Made by a program: the position numbers and the translations under genes | Source: Mesaphorura yosii | Lineage: Eukaryota > Arthropoda > Collembola > Poduromorpha > Tullbergiidae | DNA: 25,122 nt | Direction of reading: 5' to 3' | NCBI GenBank assembly: GCA_009869945.1 | Contig: WIXG01000715.1 | Coordinates: 1-25,122, forward strand | Notes under the pieces: generated by a model | The model's database searches: none | What the model saw: only the letters and a program-made list of their open reading frames with translations | Told to the model about the DNA's origin: nothing | Part shown: one piece after another, positions 2,972 through 16,200 of the stretch | Position numbering within the stretch: the stretch's first letter is position 1 | Layout of the letters: every line of letters starts with the position of its first letter

Positions 2972-4768
2972 ATGGCGGCTTCGAAACTCGTAGTTTTGTT
3001 CGCGCTGGCTTCTACATCTTGGACGCAAGCGACAGCTTCACCTCCAGAAGACCCCGCAGTGACTGAACTCCTCCCACGTGGGATTGACAGCGCCAACTCC
3101 GCGATCGCCCAGTTTATGAGGGACAATATTAAAGATTTCATTGTCGAACGGCCTATTCCGTGTGGCTCTGTGAGTTACTCAAACAACGGCAAGAAGCTAA
3201 TTAATATCGGAGGTTCTCTCAAGTAAGTCACGTCCATTCTGCTAAAATAAAGCTCGCTTAAAAAAATTAAAATCATCCACTTTTGCTCCGCAGTATTGAG
3301 GTCGCCTCTATTTGGCCAATCTTTGAAGAAGGGTGCGATGTGGACCTGAACACTGCGGGGGAAGGCTCGGCGCCGCACATCAAGATTTCAATGCGGGTTT
3401 GGAACGTGCTGATTTCGGGCACCCACACGCTGCATGGTGATGTGGGACAAAATGTGACGTTGGGCGAAGAAGGCAGTGGCGGGAGATTTACAATCATGCC
3501 GCCGGGACCTCCCAACACGCTCAATGCGACCTGCAATTTGAAAGTCGGCGTGGACGCGGGCGGGTACCTGCAACTCGGGAGCTGCTACTCGACTACCGGA
3601 CTCATTTCGCTGGCGGGGGCGGCCGTTGAGTTCTCTCCGAATTTGGTGGACGAGACTGATCTGGTGCAGGATGTACATGGTGTGGCGCTGACGCGCGGCG
3701 GGAGCACGATCGGAACCAGACTGGGCGTGGGATTTATGACGGCCATCGTCAATCACGTGCAAAGAGCATTCAGTGTAAGACTCGCATTTTTCTGACAACG
3801 CGGCCGGCAGGTCGTCTTGGGAGGCTGACGTTAATACAGTTTTGATACGCTGACGCAGGCTAGAAAGTTGGTGGACATCATTTCGGGGTCGTGGCTTCCG
3901 GTGGGAACCCCGGCGGTTACGATTTTGGAACAGGAAGGGGAAGGACTACGTTTTCCGAGAGTCCAAGTTGGAATTACGGAGGAAAAGGACGCGGGAGTAA
4001 TCGCGGACAGGATCGACGAATTTGCCCGCCAAGTCATTCTGAACGTTCTTGCTCCACTCGAGCCTTACTTGCCCAGCAGCGGGGCGACCCTCTCATACAA
4101 CAAGCCAGTTTTACAACTGGCAGGTCGTGTCTCGTAAGCTGACGATCGAGCATACAAAATTCCAAACTAAGACTTAAGTAAACGGCTTTAACAGGAACGT
4201 CGGTTATCGCGGCTTGGTTCAGAACTCCACCCTAACGATCAGCACGTGCCTCGAGTGCAGCAACGTTGTCGTGGACGTGAACCTCGGGGTGAGTGAGGGA
4301 GAACTGTTTGGCGATTTCGACTTCAACGGGACCATCGGCTCCGAAATTCCATTTCAAGCGGACGGCTCCTTCGTCCTCCGGAACATTAGCGCCAAATTCT
4401 GGTTCAAGCCCAAGTTTGACGTCGTGCAAGGCCGGTTTGCGCCGACTTCAACCTCGATGCTCCTTGCGAATTTCGAGTGGAACGGGGGCGAGGTGAACTT
4501 CCAGCCAGATGTCTTTGCAGGAGTCGATCTGGCCGAGCAGGGCAAAGCCTACCTGAACGACTTTGTGATGTGGATGATTGTGGACCAGTTGAGTATCGGA
4601 TATGCGAATGGGATCCGGGATGTAATGTACAGGGAGATTCTGCAAAAGTTCCGCGTAAGTTCCCACAATGAAATTTCCGATTAGAGTACGTGTGCGTATT
4701 GTGTAATTTATTGCACTCTTTTTCAGGATACGCCCGCACTTGATGTCATCCTTGGAGGGAATCACTGA
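2972..4768 (+). CDS. Secreted two-domain protein, possibly TULIP (takeout/Group-7 allergen-like); tandem copy 1
   Basis: Five exons (2972-3222, 3294-3774, 3859-4133, 4195-4654, 4727-4768) join through GT-AG introns of 61-84 bp with phases 2, 0, 2, 0, giving 502 residues. The start at 2972 gives a clear signal peptide (KLVVLFALASTSW, cleavage likely near ATAS). Each half begins with an amphipathic helix (AIAQFMRDNIKDF near residue 50; DRIDEFARQVILN near residue 300), followed by a glycine-led strand and a long beta-rich stretch with repeated G-x-F/V-x-L patterns. That order resembles the TULIP fold of takeout, mite Group 7 allergens and BPI, which bind lipids or hydrophobic ligands outside the cell. 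Several N-x-S/T sites suggest glycosylation. The next gene downstream is a clear paralogue. Secretion is well supported; the TULIP assignment is inference. No catalytic motif is visible. Confidence 0.75.
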
Positions 4769-5647: not shown

Positions 5648-7520
5648 ATGCAGATGACACTTGAAAGAAAGGCCGACTCTGCTGTGACAATCGATAAAAA
5701 GTTAAAAAGCAGTTACTGTGGCTGGCCATTCGCAAACTGTAGAAAGTACGCTACTTTGACGGTCGCTGTCATGGTTCTCAACTTGCTCATTGCATTCGTA
5801 ATCGCGTTGGTGTCGTGGACACAGCTTCTGCCAACTGCCTCCGCGTCAGGACGAGGATTCACCGAAGGTCATAGCGCCATCGAATCCTTTATCCGAGCGT
5901 CAATTCAAAGATTCCAAATCCAAGAACCGCTGCCCGGTGGTTACATCCAATTCACAAGCAATGGTAGGGACCTGGTCAACATTTACGGCTCAGTCAAGTA
6001 AGTCTCGCGAGGCCGCAGGGTATTGGCCGGCCAAGGCAAGGCGCTAAAGAACACTTCATTCTCGTCTTGTTTCCAGTGCCCACTTGGCCAGCTTCAGCCC
6101 AATTTACGAGCTGGGAGTGGATGTGAATTTGCACTGGCCTGGAGATGGCGGCACCGGATCTTCACAGGTGAAGATCACGATGCGGACATTCGGCGTTGTG
6201 ATCACGGGGCCGCACACTCTCAACGGAAATGTGGGGCACAACCTGACGCTCGGTGGCGAGGGTGGGAACTTTACTCTCATTCCACCAGCGGGGAACTTCC
6301 TGAAGGCGGACTGTTACATGCGAGCCAGCACCAGCTCTGATGGGCACCTGCAGCTTGGAGGTTGCCCCTCAGCAACGGGAGAGATTTCAGTCGAGGGAGG
6401 GACCGTTGATTTCACGCGTGATTTGGTGAATGACACAAGTTTGCAGGCTGATGTGAACCAAGTTGTGGTGAATCGGTTTGAAAATGCATGGCCGATTCGT
6501 CTGGGGTCCGGACTTGGCCGAGGCTTAATGGCGGCCATTGTAAATCATGTGCAGAGAGACTTGAATGTAAGTTCTGAGCAGAAAAGCTGAAACCCTTCGG
6601 CCCAACGCAAGTTTCTTTTTAAAAAATGCAGGCTACTAAAGTTCTGGATATAATTTCGGGAGTTTTGCCCGTGACTGACACGACGAGGGACGAATTACCC
6701 GAGCACGTGACTGCCATGCAGCGCGAACGGGAAGTCGGGCTCATCAATGAAAAACTTGGCGCCTTTGCTCGCAGCGCCATTTTAGACTTCACGAGCCACC
6801 ACGACCCATACTCCCCGGACGCACATGAAACGCCCATTTCGTACAACAAGCCGGCAGTCAGATTGGATGGCTACTTGTCGTAAGTCATGAGCCTGACTTT
6901 GCGCAGGTGACGTTGATATTGAAATAATTCCCTTGTCTGCTGCTTCAGAAACGTGGTCTTTCATGGCCTCAATACAAATCCGGCCTTGAACGTCAGCGCG
7001 TGCCACGATTGCAGCGGATTTCGGCTGCACATGCAACTTGACGCTGACGATTGCGAAGTGTCGGGAGATTTTGCGCTAAACGGAACAGTCAGCTCCCAAT
7101 TTCCATTCCAAGCCAGCGGTTCGTTCGTGCTGCGGGGAGTCGGTGCTAGATTTCGTTCAGAACGGGCGTTTAGTTTAACTGAGGGTCACTTCACGCCGAG
7201 CACCAGCGGCACGTGGTGGGTGCGTAGTTTTGACGGTGGTCTGGACGCACACTTCACGCCCGACATCCTCGCAGGGGTCGGCTTGTCTCAGCAGATGCGG
7301 GAGTACGTCGATGAGGTCGTGGGTTGGATGATCATCGACAAACTGAACACGTGGGATGGCTACGCGCATACGCTCGCGAACGAGATCAACGACCACCTGC
7401 AGGCGGAATTCGGGGTAGGTGAAATCTTGAACGCCGCTTTTTAAGAGGTAGGAATTGTGTTTTTATCTCAGAATTTGCTTCCTTTGCCAGGCGGTTCCAG
7501 CGTTGGATATTTTGCGGTGA
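5648..7520 (+). CDS. Two-domain TULIP-like protein, tandem copy 2
   Basis: Five exons (5648-5997, 6077-6566, 6632-6879, 6949-7414, 7491-7520) give 527 residues. Intron phases are the same as in the upstream paralogue (2, 0, 2, 0). Shared blocks include PHTLNGNVGHNLTLGGEG (copy 1: THTLHGDVGQNVTLGEEG), the LDIISG/VDIISG start of exon 3, SYNKPA/SYNKPV, and PALD in the last exon. The N-terminus differs: 41 extra residues precede MVLNLLIAFVIALVSW, which lines up with the signal peptide of copy 1. From 5648 the protein would be a type II signal-anchor membrane protein; from the internal ATG at 5771 it would be secreted. A third option is that TTTTAATGCAG before 5652 is a splice acceptor for an unseen 5' exon. 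The lipid-binding function is inferred, as for copy 1. Confidence 0.75.
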
Positions 7521-7738: not shown

Positions 7739-8597
7739 TTAGTCTGAGAATGCTGTAGTGAGGGCGAAAACCGCGAAGCGATACTCTTCCTCTGCTGTTG
7801 CTCCTCCAGCCTGCTGCGCCTGCTTCACTGAGCTCAACACGCTCTCCATCCTCTTCTGGCACAATCCAACCGCGTCCTTCAGCAGCGTCTCGGCACTGGA
7901 TGGTCCATGGTCCACGGGGCACGGCCTGCCGCCAGTCAACTCGATCAGCCGCCCCGAGCGGTGCACAAACGCAACGAAATGATTTCCGACGTGCTCGTCC
8001 GAATCGGGGGCGGGTGTTTGTCCAGCGACTGCCATGGCATGATGCAGGCTCTCGATCTCCTTCGCCTTCTCCAGCGCCTTGCCCCTCTCGTGCGGGTTGA
8101 GTCCGATGGACTGGTTGATGAAGTTGAGGAGCGGTGAGCCTTCGGCGAGCCCTGTCTCTTCTGCGTTGTTGGCAAGAGCGTGCATCACCGCGATCCCTCC
8201 GCATGCGTTTCTGATTGTTTGCACCATAAAGTAGACGCTGGGGTCAATCGCTGGCGGTGAAGCTCGAAGGTGATCATTTTCTTCCTTCACCGCCTGGTCG
8301 AATTGTGGGGTGGTGGCGTACAAGAAGATGACGGCCACGACGGGTTGCGGAATGCAGCTCAGCGCTTCGTCGTCGAATCCAAGCACATCGAGCCATGTGC
8401 CCTTTGCGGCTCCAAGCAACCTTCATAATAATTCGTACAATGATTAGGAGTTGATTGACTGTTAGTATCGTGATCAGTAGGCTCTGACTTGGTGTTTACC
8501 TCGAATACTCGGTCATGACGTCGGGATTCGACTCCAGTGGGATCCAAGCAACTCGATCAGCCGGATTGGCACCGGTGTCAGTTTTAGTAGTAGCCAT
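7739..8597 (-). CDS. Ubiquitin C-terminal hydrolase, UCH-L1/L3 type
   Basis: Exons 8500-8597 and 7739-8420 are joined across a 79 bp intron (GTAAAC...AG), giving 259 residues. The family usually has about 225-235; the extra length is an N-terminal leader, a Ser-rich linker and an Ala/Gln-rich stretch near residue 240. Family landmarks are clear: WIPLESNPDVMTEYSR at the N-terminus, oxyanion Gln100 and nucleophile Cys106 in VQTIRNACGG, the catalytic His180 in NHFVAFVH, and the crossover-loop segment ERGKALEKA. UCH enzymes are cytosolic thiol proteases that remove small adducts from the ubiquitin C-terminus. The third triad residue, normally Asp in a Leu-Asp-Gly context, is Thr195 here (IELTGGRP; codon at 7934-7936), so activity may be reduced. 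The family call is very secure; activity is uncertain. Confidence 0.92.
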
Positions 8598-9465: not shown

Positions 9466-10043
9466 TTGTCATTGCCAAAAGTACCATAAAACACAATGCA
9501 ATGTGTATGGTTCTGGTCAAGCCCATCCAACACTACCAAATTCTCTGCAAAGCATTCTTTGTTTTGGTTTTGCTGGCGTCAAACTCGTACAGCAAAAAAG
9601 TTTGAAATTCTTGCCACGAATAAATACTCGAGCCGTCATTCCTTTCATTTCATTTGATCATCAGGGCGTAGTACAAGTTAAACCCACTTAATATTTTAGG
9701 TACATACACTTGACAATATACTGCTTTGGTAATTACTGTTAAGCTGATCGAGATAGGCATATCAGACTGTGTTTGAGCTGAGCAATCAGCTGAGCTCAGC
9801 AGCTGACTACCCAACTGGGTGGTAATTAATTGATGCTTTGCCTTGTCTTCAGTTTGAACCTGGGTTTCCTTAATTGACTCTTGACTGATCTGACTGACCT
9901 GATCTGTGACCTTAACTGTGATTTGTCATTTGCATGACAGTCGACTAGACTAAAAAGGTAAGTCGTGACGCCGAAGCCAACGGTTGGAAGCAATTAGCGC
10001 GAACACTCAGTTGAGGGATCAATCTATTTAGGCGTCAAGGATT
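9466..10043. other. Intergenic, upstream region of the DEAH-RBR gene
   Basis: No gene is seen. There are two CAGCTG E-box hexamers (9787-9792 and 9800-9805) in a GAGCTC-centred near-palindrome, and a run of degenerate TGACT/TGATC repeats at about 9870-9915. An arthropod-type initiator TCAGTT occurs at 10007-10012, about 35 bp before the ATG. No TATA box is obvious. Confidence 0.35.
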
Positions 10044-13000
10044 ATGGAACTGAGCCGTGCCCCCGCCTCCGCCACTGCGCTGCACCAGTGTCGACACGGA
10101 ACTTCTTGTCATACATTCGGCTGCCGATTCAATCACCCTGGCCGTGCTCACTGCAGACACGATCGGATTGGCTGCCTGAGAGTTGACTGCAAGTACAATC
10201 ACAAAGTGCTAATTTGCAAGCTTAATCCTGGTTGTAGGAAGAAGGCTTGCCCATATCGCCATGTACCTGCATCAGCATTAACCAAACCGGCCATGGCTCT
10301 GACTCCGTCAGGGCACAGGGGACCCTCAAAACTGCCAGCTCCTGCTGAAGAGCGGAAGTCTACCCATACTGCTCCTACTGCCGCTAAGAAGTATCCTGCC
10401 GAGCCTAGAGCGGGCTTCATCTGCAGGTTAGTCCGATTGCTTCAAATTGCCGTAAGCAGGAGAGCCGATGAGATTTAACAATTATCAATGTGCTTCTTAG
10501 ACCGAATGACAAACGAAACGAGGAAGTATCTGCCATCGCCCGTCACAAGCTTAAGCTGGCCGCTGAGAAACAGAAGCTCACCAAACTCAGCTTATCGCAT
10601 GAATTTAATAAGGCGGAACCCGATGCATTGAAGACTGCGGCTGCGTACCGGCTTCGTATCCAGGAGCTGGAGGCCCAGTTACGAGTGTTCCATCAAGTAA
10701 AGCTGAGAGCCATTCGGCACCTAACTAAGAACGAGCTCAGACTGCAGCTCTGCCGAGAATTGTATCGACTCTGCTCTGGCCTTCCAGCCCTCGGCAAGCG
10801 AGTTGAAATCGAGACTTGTGTAGATAACGAGACCTCAAGATTCCTGATTGTGCAAGGGGACACCGGTTCCGGAAAGAGCACGCAAATCGTCCAGTACCTG
10901 GCCGACCTCCCGCTTTTCAGAGGAAAACGAATCGTGTGTACGCAGCCGAGGAAAATCGCCGCCGTTTCCCTCGCGAATCGGGTCGCCTTTGAGTACGCGG
11001 GCGGAAGCGACCGTGCTAAGCCGGGATCCCAAATTGGGTTTCAAGTCGGAGGACAGCGCCGAAGCTTCAACCGCAAGCGTACGCGCATCGAGTTTGTCAC
11101 TGAAGGCATTATGCTGGAACGGATCATCGCCGGATCGAAGGAGCCGTTCATGGACGTCGGCTGCATTGTGATTGACGAGGCGCACGAGCGAAGCGTCACG
11201 TGCGATTTGCTTCTGGGCTGCTTCCGACTGGAAGACGAGAGATGGAAGGACATCAAGATCGTAGTTACGTCAGCAACAATTGACTTGGGTGTTTTCTCGG
11301 CGTATTTTGACGGGGCTCCAACGATAGAGATTTCGGGCCGCACCTTTCCTGTGGAAAACCACTATTGTCCGTTGCAGGAAGAGGGCGCCAACTTGCAAGC
11401 AGCCGTCGTATCCTGTGCGCTCAACATTCACAAAGCGGTCAAGCAAACGCCTGGTGACATTCTCTGCTTCCTACCTGGTCAAGACGACGTGCAGAAGGCC
11501 AAAGACTCCTTTGAAGCCCAGGTCGCTCGTCTGAGGGAACCAGAACACGCTCAGCTGCTTAAAACGACAACGCTCGCACTGTACGGGAGGCAGGACCCCG
11601 AAGAGCAAGCCCAAGTCTTCACGAAGCTCGCTGCAGGGCAAAGGAAAGTTATCTTCTCCACGGACATTGCCGAGACCAGCGTAACGATTGACGGAGTCGT
11701 GTACGTCGTCGACAGCGGAGTACGCAAAGAAATGACCTTCGACCCCAAGCGAAACATTTCCTCACTCAAACTGAATCAAATTTCTCGCGGGTCAGCCATT
11801 CAACGAGCGGGAAGAGCTGGACGTACGCAACCGGGCCATTGTTACCGCCTTTACTCCGCCGAGGACTACGAACGAATGGAGGCAAGCGCAGCCCCGGAAA
11901 TCTTTCGCCGTCCGCTTTCGCTCGCGATTCTGTCACTGAAAGAGATGAAGATTGACACGCAGGCATTCCGATGGATCAGTGTCCCGGATCAGGAGGCGGT
12001 CAAGGTAGCAGAGCAGGAGCTAGCTTGGCTTGGAGCAGTCAGCGAGGACTCATCGCAAGTGACGGAGCTCGGACGGCTTATCATACGGTCTCAGCAGGAA
12101 CCCAAACTCGTCCGCATGATACAGCGAGGTTGTGAGCTGGGTCTGGGCATGACCGCACTTACAATAGCCGGAGTGTTGTCCGTGTCCAACCTTTTTTCTG
12201 GCAGGGAAACACCCCCGAGTTAAAAGAAGAGGCAAAGTTACGCAGACAGCAGCAAAGTGACCCGGACGGCGACGTTGTGACCATTTACAAGCTGTACAAG
12301 CAGTGGCTGGCGATTCTGGAAGGAAGCATCCAGGCTGATGAGGGGCTACCTGAGATACTTCCTGAGCCTGAGGAGCCTCCGGTGACTCCAGCCTCGTACG
12401 AGGAGCCTGACAATGAGCAACAGTTCCACTTCATTGCACCAGTAGCACCCCCTGCCGACCTAGAATGGACTCACCAACATGACGAAGCAGGGCAGGAGCA
12501 AGACGAAGTATCCAATGCCGAAGGCGCTGACCAAGACCAGGACCAGCCACTTGTATTCGAGGAAGAGGAGCTCCAGCCGGATGACGAGTCAGAGACTCAG
12601 AGTCTCGCCCCGACAGAAGAATCAAACGGGCCTTCAACGCTGCAAGAAGCCGTCGAAGAAATCGACGTCGAGCTACCCTTGGCTGGAAAGAATAAAAGAA
12701 GGAAACGAGCAGCGGCTTTCTGTAGACTTAAGTACGTCAACGGAAAGGCAGTGTCAATCATCAAGTCTACCGTTTCCGAGCTTCAATTCATCTTCCGAAA
12801 CACGTCAGCGTGGAAGAGATCGCCGTCACAAGACCGAGAGCCCACGAGCGAAGAACTGAATCGCCTTGTCTGCGCTGGCTTCTACTTGCACTGTGCCCGG
12901 CTGTACCAGTCAAAGTCAAGGGCAAGCCAGTACTACGCCATCTTCTCGGACACGGTCGGCAAACTCGACTACAAATCCGCGCTTCAGCAGAGGCCCGATG

Positions 13001-16000
13001 AGCAGGACTGGATTGTATACGACAAAATCCTGCAGACATCGCTTGTCCTATTTCCGATGGCCGTCCCGATTCGACTGGAATGGATCGAGCAGGAGACTCG
13101 CCAAGTCAACCCACAACTGATGCATCTCTGCCTGGCAAAGGCGGCCGCCATTCCAACCGAAAAAGTGGTGGCCAACACCTCGGCCACTGTTCTCCGTTCA
13201 ATCTGTGGGAAATTCTTCAGTAAGCTGCCAGCTTTGGAGGAACAACTAGGCTCGAACCTGAATGTGGATTTGGCTCAAGGCACGATCGAAGTTTATTGCA
13301 CTGCTGCAAAGCGTGTAGAAGTGGAACGGGTCGTGCAAGAGAAGATCCGGGTCGTTGTGAGTGCGCTCGAGTCAGACACTGCTGAAGTTGCCGTCGATCC
13401 AGAAGCAGGAGCCGGTGGATCAGGGACGCGTGTGCTGGTTGGCGTAGGGTACAAGCTGAGGGAGGTGCTGTTTCCGGGCGAGTTCGCTACACTCCAACTC
13501 CAAAAGCTGCCTCGAGGCTGCACAGAAAAAGAATTGCTCCATTTTTTCTCTTCTCAGCGGCCCCCGATCGACGGACTACTCTCCATCAATTTAGTCGAGT
13601 ACCACACCGCGAGTGGAGCCACGCTAAAATTCGAGGGCAAGCAGAACGCACGGCGAGCCTTCGAGCAACTCCGCGGCCGACAGTTTCAAAACCGGACTCT
13701 AGACATCACTCAGCCTGACATGGCAACCAACACCGTCTCGTCGTACTGGCTTCGCCGCGGTCAGTCTTGTGGGCTGATTGTATCTTGGTCAACGTGTCCC
13801 TCCACTGGAAGAGCCTTCCTCACCTTCAGGACTCCGACGGATGCGAACCACGTGATTGAAAATGTTGACAGTTTGCTGTTTGGAGCCAGAATTCAGAAAG
13901 TACATGGCGAGAAGGACCCGACGCTGGCGTCAAACAGAGCTAGAGTTCCACACGTCCATCGCATTGCGCCACGTCGTTACAAATTTAACACGCAGCAGCC
14001 GTGGGCTGTGAACGACAACGTCAGGGTCCCGGAGGTCAACTACGTACTGACGGTGGCGGATCTTCCGCTGAATATAGACGAGCAGGATATACGGAAAGCT
14101 TTGGCACACGTTCCAATCACGCCCATGAAGGTGGTGCTGACAAGGGACCCCAACGACAAGGACGCCACGCCCACAAACCCGGCGACGACAAAAATGTTCC
14201 TTCGTCCACTGACCAGTCACTTGACTCCAGAGACAGTCCCCAACGAGTTTTCCCACAAGAACGGGCGTGCGGGAATAAGGGTTATGATCCCAGATCGAGA
14301 ACAGGCACTTGCAGCGTACGCGGCTGCGAGGCCAGAGTACTTGCGAATGGGTACTTTCAACCTGCAGCCAGTGCGTCTGGAATTTGAGCACACTCAGTGG
14401 ACATCGATTCACGTCGACTTGCACAAATTCTTCCAAACAGGCATCGAGCAAGTTATTGCGTACGCAAGGTCTCGTGCAGTCTTTACATCCACCGGAACCC
14501 AAGCGAGGCAGACTGACGCCGCTTCGAAATTCGCATCGATTTGTTTCCGATCACCAGACAACGAACTGCTCAACACAATTCAGGCTCGGCTGCACGCAGT
14601 GATCGCGTACCGAGCCTTCACGAACCCTGATCGTGAGCTTTTGTTCACTTGGACGGGAAGGCATTTCATGGAACAAATCTCCACTGAGCTCGGATTCATC
14701 TATTTTGACAGCCGCACGCGAATGATTCTCATGTACGGCACAGAGGAAGGGCAGGAGCTGCTGGAGTACCAACTTCGCGCCGTCATCGACCGACTCAAGC
14801 AACTGGAGTGCATTGACCAGCTTGTCGTCCTGCACACGCCCAAGGGGACGAATGTTAAAAAAACGGAGGAACAAATAGCCAAGATTTGCCGTACCAAAGG
14901 AGCTGTCCACTGGAACATGGTGCGGAACCAGTTGTACATCACAGGATCGCGGGCCGATTGCACGTCAATCGAAGATACACTACAGAAAGCTGGACTATTG
15001 CGCAAGAACCGGAACACCAAGGAACAAAATGGAGCAGCTGCAGAATGTGGAATTTGTTTTTGTGCACTCGACCGCAATTTCCACACGACTAGCATCTGCG
15101 GCCACAGATTCTGTGTCGAATGCATTCAGCCCATGTTTGAGACAGTCCCGCCGCCGAGCGTTCCCGTCGTCTGCCCGACCTGCGAACATCCACTTACAGT
15201 AAAGGACGTGATCAAGTTCGCGAGGTCGGAGGCGTTGCGCTGCGTCCTGGATCACGCCGTCAGACAGTACAGAACCGAGCACCCCGAGCTGGTCGCGCTT
15301 TGTCCTCAACCGGGCTGCAATCAGCTGCTCCCACCAGGAACTCCGACCAAGGGTAAGTTACTCCATGGTTGAAACCAAAGCCAATGATTTACCTGCTGTG
15401 TTGCAGTAACTCTCGTTCCTGTTGCAGGGTCGACCAGGTCGTTGTTACATTGCTTTGCCTGCAAAATTATGTACTGCGTCATGTGCACCGAGGCCACAGG
15501 CAAAGCATCAGAGGCACATCCAGGAGAGACGTGCGCCCAGAGTCAGAGGGGGTTGTCAAAAGCAGTCATGATTCACCTGCGCCATGTTCGTGAGAGCATC
15601 TTCAACAACCGCTGTCCACGATGCAAAACAGTCTGGTACAACTTTGAAGGCTGCTGCGCCGTCACGTGTGGAACATGTCAATGCGCCTTTTGTGGCATTT
15701 GTTTCGAGGACTGCGGCTCCGATGCACACGGCCACGTCGTCTTACGTTGCACACGTAACCCGACACAAGGCCAACTTTTCCTGGACGCGTCGACATTGAA
15801 GCAAGTGCACAACGCAGGTCGTGAGCAGCAACTTCGCGCGTACCTGAACAAACTGTCAGAAGAGCAGGCAGTGCATCAGGATATACTCCACGAAGTACAC
15901 AAGCACTTGACCCGTGACTTGATCGACCTGGGCCTGGACCCAGCACGGGTGTTTGCAGGGATCGGGGATTGGCAGCGAATTGCGGAAACCCAAAGACCCT

Positions 16001-16200
16001 GCGCGGCACTGCGTCCAGTCCCAGCACCACGTCCGGTTGCACATCGAACCCGGCGCCAAATCCCGCAACCCGTCGCCGTACCTGCTGCCCCACATCCGGC
16101 TCCACGCCCGGTCCTACATCCAGTCCCGCGACGCGCAGTCGTGCGCCCTGCCCCACACCCGGATCCACTCGAACGCGAACGCCCATGTGCAATCCTCTAA
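10044..16200 (+). CDS. CCCH zinc finger / DEAH-box RNA helicase / RBR ubiquitin ligase fusion (DEAH11/12-like)
   Basis: Exons 10044-10426, 10501-15352 and 15428-16200 give 2002 residues if one base is restored in the C-run at 12212-12216. Order: three C-x5/6-C-x4-C-x3-H zinc fingers of Nab2/ZC3H14 type (residues 16-73); a predicted coiled coil (about 138-200); helicase motifs GDTGSGKST (248-256), DEAH (353-356), SAT (385-387), DIAETSVTIDG and QRAGRAGR (562-569); winged-helix/HA2, split by an acidic insert (about 735-855) that ends in the basic NKRRKR; an OB-fold segment (CAGFYLHCARLY onward); RRM-like segments (about 1122-1200 and 1305-1365); RING1 (from C1644), IBR (from C1729), RING2 (from C1808, putative catalytic C1821); a Pro/Arg-rich tail; and C-terminal CAIL. 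Plant DEAH11/DEAH12 share the helicase-RBR order. Expected activities are ATP-driven RNA remodelling and ubiquitin transfer. The substrate is unknown. Confidence 0.88.
12212..12216 (+). other. One-base frame break in a C homopolymer inside the DEAH-RBR gene
   Basis: The helicase frame runs from exon 1 to a TAA at 12221-12223. The next frame continues without a stop from at least 12205 to 15352 and carries the conserved HA2 continuation (GDVVTIYKLYKQW). One extra C in this run of five would join them exactly. A splice explanation is poor: CTTTTTTCTGGCAG looks like an acceptor, but removing the preceding bases would delete the conserved helicase segment ALTIAGVLSVSNLFSG. Confidence 0.7.
16186..16197 (+). 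other. C-terminal CaaX prenylation motif (CAIL)
   Basis: The last four codons before TAA (16198-16200) encode Cys-Ala-Ile-Leu. CaaX motifs with terminal Leu are typical substrates of geranylgeranyltransferase I; G-protein gamma-2 ends the same way. The preceding residues ERERP are charged and Pro-rich. Prenylation is an inference from the motif. Confidence 0.5.

Follow-up and report, generated by a model that had tools for sequence, protein, structure and literature searches.

How does an animal genome come to carry one gene that reads as zinc fingers, a helicase and a ubiquitin ligase together? The question is raised by a locus of the springtail Mesaphorura yosii, lying in a 25,122-nucleotide stretch of contig WIXG01000715.1 (hereafter the window), for which a first-pass annotation had proposed a protein joining CCCH fingers, a DEAH helicase and an RBR ligase, with a CaaX box at its end. 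The gene (10044-16200, forward strand) comprises four coding pieces and two short introns of GT-AG type (Table 1) and encodes a product of 2,001 amino acids when read in its two frames, since between exon 2 and the next long frame the reading is broken by one base, with no intron. Folsomia, Bradysia and Pseudolycoriella align through this break with one residue more than the window protein, which rules out an intron at 12190-12200 in its place; the proteins of Pythium and Saprolegnia show small gaps near the site.

Table 1 Features of the helicase-RBR gene (window coordinates)
Feature	Position	Strand	Remark
Exon 1: start codon, three CCCH fingers, linker	10044..10426	+	ORF, donor CAG|GTTAGT, phase fits exon 2
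Three CCCH fingers CRHGTSCHTFGCRFNH, CRHDRIGCLRVDCKYNH, CKLNPGCRKKACPYRH	10089..10262	+	Pattern count
Intron 1, 74 bases, GT-AG	10427..10500	+	Also in the partial copy on contig C712
Exon 2: DEAH helicase core and start of HA2	10501..12197	+	Phase fits exon 1
Walker A	10856-10882	+	In exon 2
DEAH	11174-11185	+	In exon 2
Six-T run with one-base frame shift	12192..12197	+	Alignment with relatives
Coding frame resumed: HA2, OB, folds of KH-like, RRM and RRM-like type, RING1, IBR up to intron 2	12198..15352	+	
RRM 1	13486..13713	+	
RING1	15046..15183	+	Little or no variation at the eight zinc ligands in alignment A1
Intron 2, 75 bases, GT-AG, phase 1, within IBR	15353..15427	+	Donor G|GTAAG
Exon 4: remaining IBR, RING2, proline/arginine-rich tail, CaaX box, stop	15428..16200	+	Phase fits preceding piece
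RING2 core	15613..15702	+	Catalytic cysteine codon 15652-15654; alanine, not histidine, two residues later
C-terminal CAIL, CaaX pattern	16186..16197	+	

The host is an animal, as had been assumed, and the gene resides in the springtail genome. In the genome to which the window belongs (93 Mb, 1,127 contigs) we found 66 arthropod cuticle-domain matches, four chemosensory-protein matches in one cluster and, on the window's own contig, a stretch of animal haem peroxidase; a search of the genome for the COX1 family gave no match. The genome's own DHX16 is sister to that of Allacma fusca (100/100; match of 1,426 bits, 81% over 99% of the query) in a tree of 27 of 120 listed matches, where Allacma is the sole named springtail. 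An Ixodes scapularis record topped the DHX16 scores (1,617 bits, 86% over 61% of the query), and the tree puts it with other ticks.

A search with the full-length protein gave 627 matches at E <= 0.001 among 7,987 scored candidates, of which the best 120 were listed. The top 23, here called the family, score 523-1,250 bits, followed by a drop to 415; they include, by name, Folsomia candida, two sciarid gnats, five oomycetes and Lithocolla, and three further rows fall with the gnats in the trees. Among the family, 18 of the 23 homologues reach RING2 within one protein of 1,649-2,268 amino acids; P0005 is one protein of 1,930 amino acids, and two single-protein homologues (Lithocolla P0015 and eukprot P0014) bear transcript-assembly names. 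The frame break and the two introns might be taken to mean that two adjacent genes, one for a helicase and one for an RBR ligase, have been misread as one, but single-protein homologues in springtail, gnats, oomycetes and Lithocolla speak against this, and the alignment with relatives places the break in the helicase-associated part and not at the helicase/RBR junction, which makes such a misreading extremely improbable. The proposed fusion of helicase and RBR in one animal gene is real, and relatives keep it as a single protein.

The window product carries the DEAH/RHA helicase core with HA2 and OB, exon 2 encoding the SAT and QRAGRAGR motifs as well, and its C-terminal part holds the zinc ligands of RING1, IBR and RING2 together with the RING2 catalytic cysteine. 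The helicase motifs and the RING1-IBR-RING2 pattern that had been read by eye were recovered by pattern and by alignment. All four helicase motifs were detected by pattern in the window and in 20 of the 23 family homologues, the misses being two fragments and P0021, whose sequence reads GQIGSGKS. The window RING and IBR score under the Pfam cut-offs, RING1 with 26.9 bits against 27.3 for zf-RING_2. As to the fingers, described earlier as Nab2-type, the three CCCH patterns stand, whereas the profile match of the region to PF14608 (zf-CCCH_2; E 0.0036, 18.2 bits) stays below the cut-off of 25.8. Between helicase and RBR lie RRM and putative KH-like folds, the latter assigned from how strands and helices succeed each other in two AlphaFold models. 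Missing KH matches in comparisons with the PDB are uninformative, because these comparisons covered mainly the helicase-associated and RRM parts, and the profiles KH_DEAH11 and RBD_DEAH11 gave no window match at E up to 1, a range in which the HMMER filters drop most weak matches.

Helicase-RBR fusions of the DEAH11/DEAH12 type are the obvious comparison, and the first-pass annotation had drawn it. The gene could accordingly be an ordinary animal DEAH11/DEAH12-type helicase-RBR that was inherited vertically, diverged in springtails and gnats and was frequently lost in other animals. The plant and animal proteins of this type have DEAH helicase, OB, RNA-binding folds and RBR ordered as in the window, weak matches to DEAH11 profiles occur in relatives of the window protein (PF24641 in P0015, PF24475 in P0020), and helicase RBRs have often been lost in animals, as stated in the available part of one study (PMC2904391). 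Trees of the helicase (508 columns) and of the RBR (234 columns) were built apart from 40 of the 120 listed matches (23 family, 17 of the 97 others) and the window, the RBR tree without P0021; they agree on the main splits, and both separate the family from the DEAH11/12-like rows with 100/100. The arthropod clade, in which the window stands with Folsomia and the sciarid gnats, lies next to the oomycetes and obtained 97/96 in the helicase tree and 96/85 in the RBR tree, where P0005, P0014 and Lithocolla had no settled place; long branches meet the outgroup in the RBR tree as well as in the joined tree discussed below. N-terminal CCCH patterns were found in 15 of 20 testable family matches and in 0 of 79 other rows, counting rows with a found Walker A (three family and 18 other rows had none by pattern). 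Most of the listed DEAH11/12-like proteins contain the KH_DEAH11 profile, which gave no match in the window at E up to 1, and their RING2 differs. The 97 rows beyond the family, several titled DEAH11 or DEAH12, comprise by name lancelets, molluscs, spiders, a ribbon worm, a soft coral and plants. We regard vertical descent from a DEAH11/DEAH12 ancestor as distinctly unlikely; judged by the two trees, the window protein belongs instead to a separate lineage common to oomycetes and other protists. A search of the literature collection at hand for this CCCH-type helicase-RBR lineage found no description of it.

Closest to the window among the proteins compared are the uncharacterised product of Folsomia candida LOC110845722 and two sciarid proteins, Bradysia LOC119082138 and a Pseudolycoriella protein named 'PRP43', all with the same domain order and with 55-59% identity in the helicase core and about 40% in the RBR. 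Unlike the window protein, the Folsomia protein P0001 (one isoform) contains neither CCCH fingers nor a CaaX box, and the gnat proteins possess a second RING2. The oomycete proteins (Pythium, Saprolegnia, Achlya) combine DEAH and RBR with the window's RING2 signature; three of the five named ones (P0006, P0009, P0013) show CCCH patterns, and RING2 occurs twice in each of the three Pythium forms. P0020 contains seven CCCH patterns and, between helicase and OB, a UBA domain, a further link to ubiquitin.

Regarding the origin of the gene, we joined the alignments in a tree of 25 rows and 1,505 columns (without P0011, P0016, P0021, P0023 and 12 of the 17 outgroup rows), to be read with the caution that 13 rows have unusual composition. 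The arthropod rows and P0005 form one clade (100/99) with the oomycetes as its sister (together 100/100), and a topology that joins the arthropods to Lithocolla, an opisthokont, is rejected (p-AU 1.35e-57). Folsomia and the gnats group without the window (96/94; 90/90 in a narrower tree of 12 matches plus the window), but springtail monophyly is not rejected (p-AU 0.088 in the joined tree, 0.156 in the narrower set), and a transfer from springtail to gnat is therefore favoured, short of demonstrated. In the gnat-like ORFs P0004, P0008 and P0011 the protein alignment breaks off at the residue of window intron 2, as it would at a phase-1 intron, and this intron is probably common to them and the window. 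Tree shape, patchy presence and the probably common intron together favour transfer from an oomycete-like source, although the sister relation of oomycetes and arthropods leaves room for other donors and, to some degree, for massive loss. The lineage might be old in eukaryotes and retained by few arthropods and protists after many independent losses, with no transfer at all, which would suit members in groups as distant as oomycetes, the rotosphaerid Lithocolla and others, and arthropod and oomycete proteins that are sisters and not nested. Against this count the rejected grouping with Lithocolla, the favoured position of the gnats inside the springtails and the fact that, within the best 120 of 627 matches, the only animals named among the 23 of the family are one springtail and two sciarid gnats; we consider the loss scenario rather unlikely. 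Exchange of other genes among springtail, gnat and mite is published, as far as the available parts of two papers go (PMC12051294; PMC13389597). It is likely that the helicase-RBR gene reached arthropods by horizontal transfer, and both an oomycete-like donor and the direction from springtail to gnat are plausible. On balance we lean towards the gene being the springtail member of a separate CCCH-DEAH helicase-OB/KH/RRM-RBR lineage whose other holders are oomycetes, sciarid gnats and a small number of further protists, with horizontal transfer as the most likely source of the springtail gene.

The one-base break in this assembly also raises the question of decay. Contig C712 contains a shortened second copy (L035 3679-5077). 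It covers window 10020-11403 including intron 1 and stops early; it is 7 bases short in Walker A, and in its first finger H is replaced by Y. Both the break and this copy would fit a gene that is decaying, or already a pseudogene, in the springtail. The coding sequence of about 6 kb is otherwise open, however, with intact splice sites and catalytic motifs, the break falls within a homopolymer, and the two copies differ with a Ka/Ks of 0.37 (41 synonymous and 52 nonsynonymous differences over 425 codons), which implies that at least one copy was constrained for part of the time since duplication. Decay of the window gene thus appears unlikely, and the purifying selection that had been named as a supporting sign is seen for the 5' part of the gene, where the shortened duplicate allows comparison.

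In the family the RING2 loop mostly reads F-x-D-F-x-G-C-x-(A/S/C)-(V/L)-x-C, and a histidine two residues after the cysteine is found in 0 of 25 copies (24 copies in 18 rows and one copy of P0023; 19 of 24 rows examined, five rows showing no RING2). The same position in the 97 DEAH11/12-like rows is histidine in 60, K, N or R in 19 and without the motif in 18, i.e. GC-x-H occurs in 60 of the 79 rows showing it. HOIL-1 has a tryptophan at that position, a C-terminal zinc cluster supplying another histidine, and no helicase. Ordinary lysine transfer is uncertain for the RING2 of the window protein, which has no general-base histidine. In the available part of one article (PMC9853177), most RBRs are said to use this histidine as their general base, and HOIL-1 (RBCK1), the maker of ester links, to do without it, as the window protein does. 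The histidine is likewise absent from two further RBR-type genes of this springtail (GCNIMFC and GCNKVTC), hence its loss need not mean ester transfer; GCNIMFC belongs to the springtail's own Ariadne-like RBR on contig C11 (865-2430). A second RING2 follows the RBR in the gnat and Pythium-type proteins P0002, P0003, P0006, P0007, P0009 and P0010, and since the oomycete one has a two-residue insertion absent from that of the gnats, the gnat and oomycete copies may stem from separate duplications.

A cysteine fourth from the end occurs, besides the window, in five of the 120 listed matches: CCIL, comparable to the window's CAIL, in Bradysia and Pseudolycoriella, CTIA in P. oligandrum as the only oomycete, and CFDY and CTIL in two DEAH11/12-like rows. 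In the arthropod clade, three of the five proteins with a given C-terminus (window and two gnats) bear the CaaX box proposed at first, and Folsomia P0001 and P0005 do not. A leucine at the last position of CaaX favours geranylgeranylation, and prenylation is predicted for the window and gnat tails.

From the anatomy of the protein, we infer an RNA-guided, perhaps membrane-anchored E3 ligase. The CCCH fingers and the KH/RRM block would hold RNA, the DEAH motor would move along it or remodel it by ATP hydrolysis, and the RBR would take ubiquitin from an E2 onto the RING2 cysteine and then pass it to a protein on the held RNA; a geranylgeranyl-type tail would place the window and gnat forms on an internal membrane. 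Such an enzyme may serve the clearance of RNPs or the defence against foreign RNA. A bolder version, in which the gene passed from an oomycete-like donor to springtails and on to fungus gnats as a membrane-anchored RNA motor with its own ligase, whose histidine-free RING2 ubiquitinates hydroxyls of RNPs (serine, threonine, possibly RNA or sugar) and not lysine, is in our view very improbable as a whole. The data indicate at least two deep lineages of helicase-RBR fusion proteins, the second of which combines CCCH fingers with an unusual RING2 and has a patchy presence in animals that fits gene exchange among soil organisms. As springtails and fungus gnats are laboratory animals, an RNA-guided ubiquitin ligase could be tested directly, as could a possible action of RBRs lacking the histidine base on non-lysine targets.

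Head to head with the E3 gene lies a UCH-L3-like deubiquitinase gene (window 7742-8419, reverse strand), which reads ELTGG where its relatives P0121 and P0132 have ELDGR, the Asp of which is catalytic. Its best named match is again Bradysia, and UCH matches occur on six contigs of the springtail genome. A co-transferred partner was considered and found no support, as a small tree with long branches, for which two of the five other genome copies were usable, groups it with a further UCH copy from this genome (97/94). Window 3283-4684 and 6084-7444 contain similar adjoining genes with paired ORFs, e.g. GTHTLHGDVGQNVTLG and GPHTLNGNVGHNLTLGG; a Pfam scan of three of the four paired ORFs gave no match, and the pair is likely a tandem duplicate of proteins outside the Pfam families matched.
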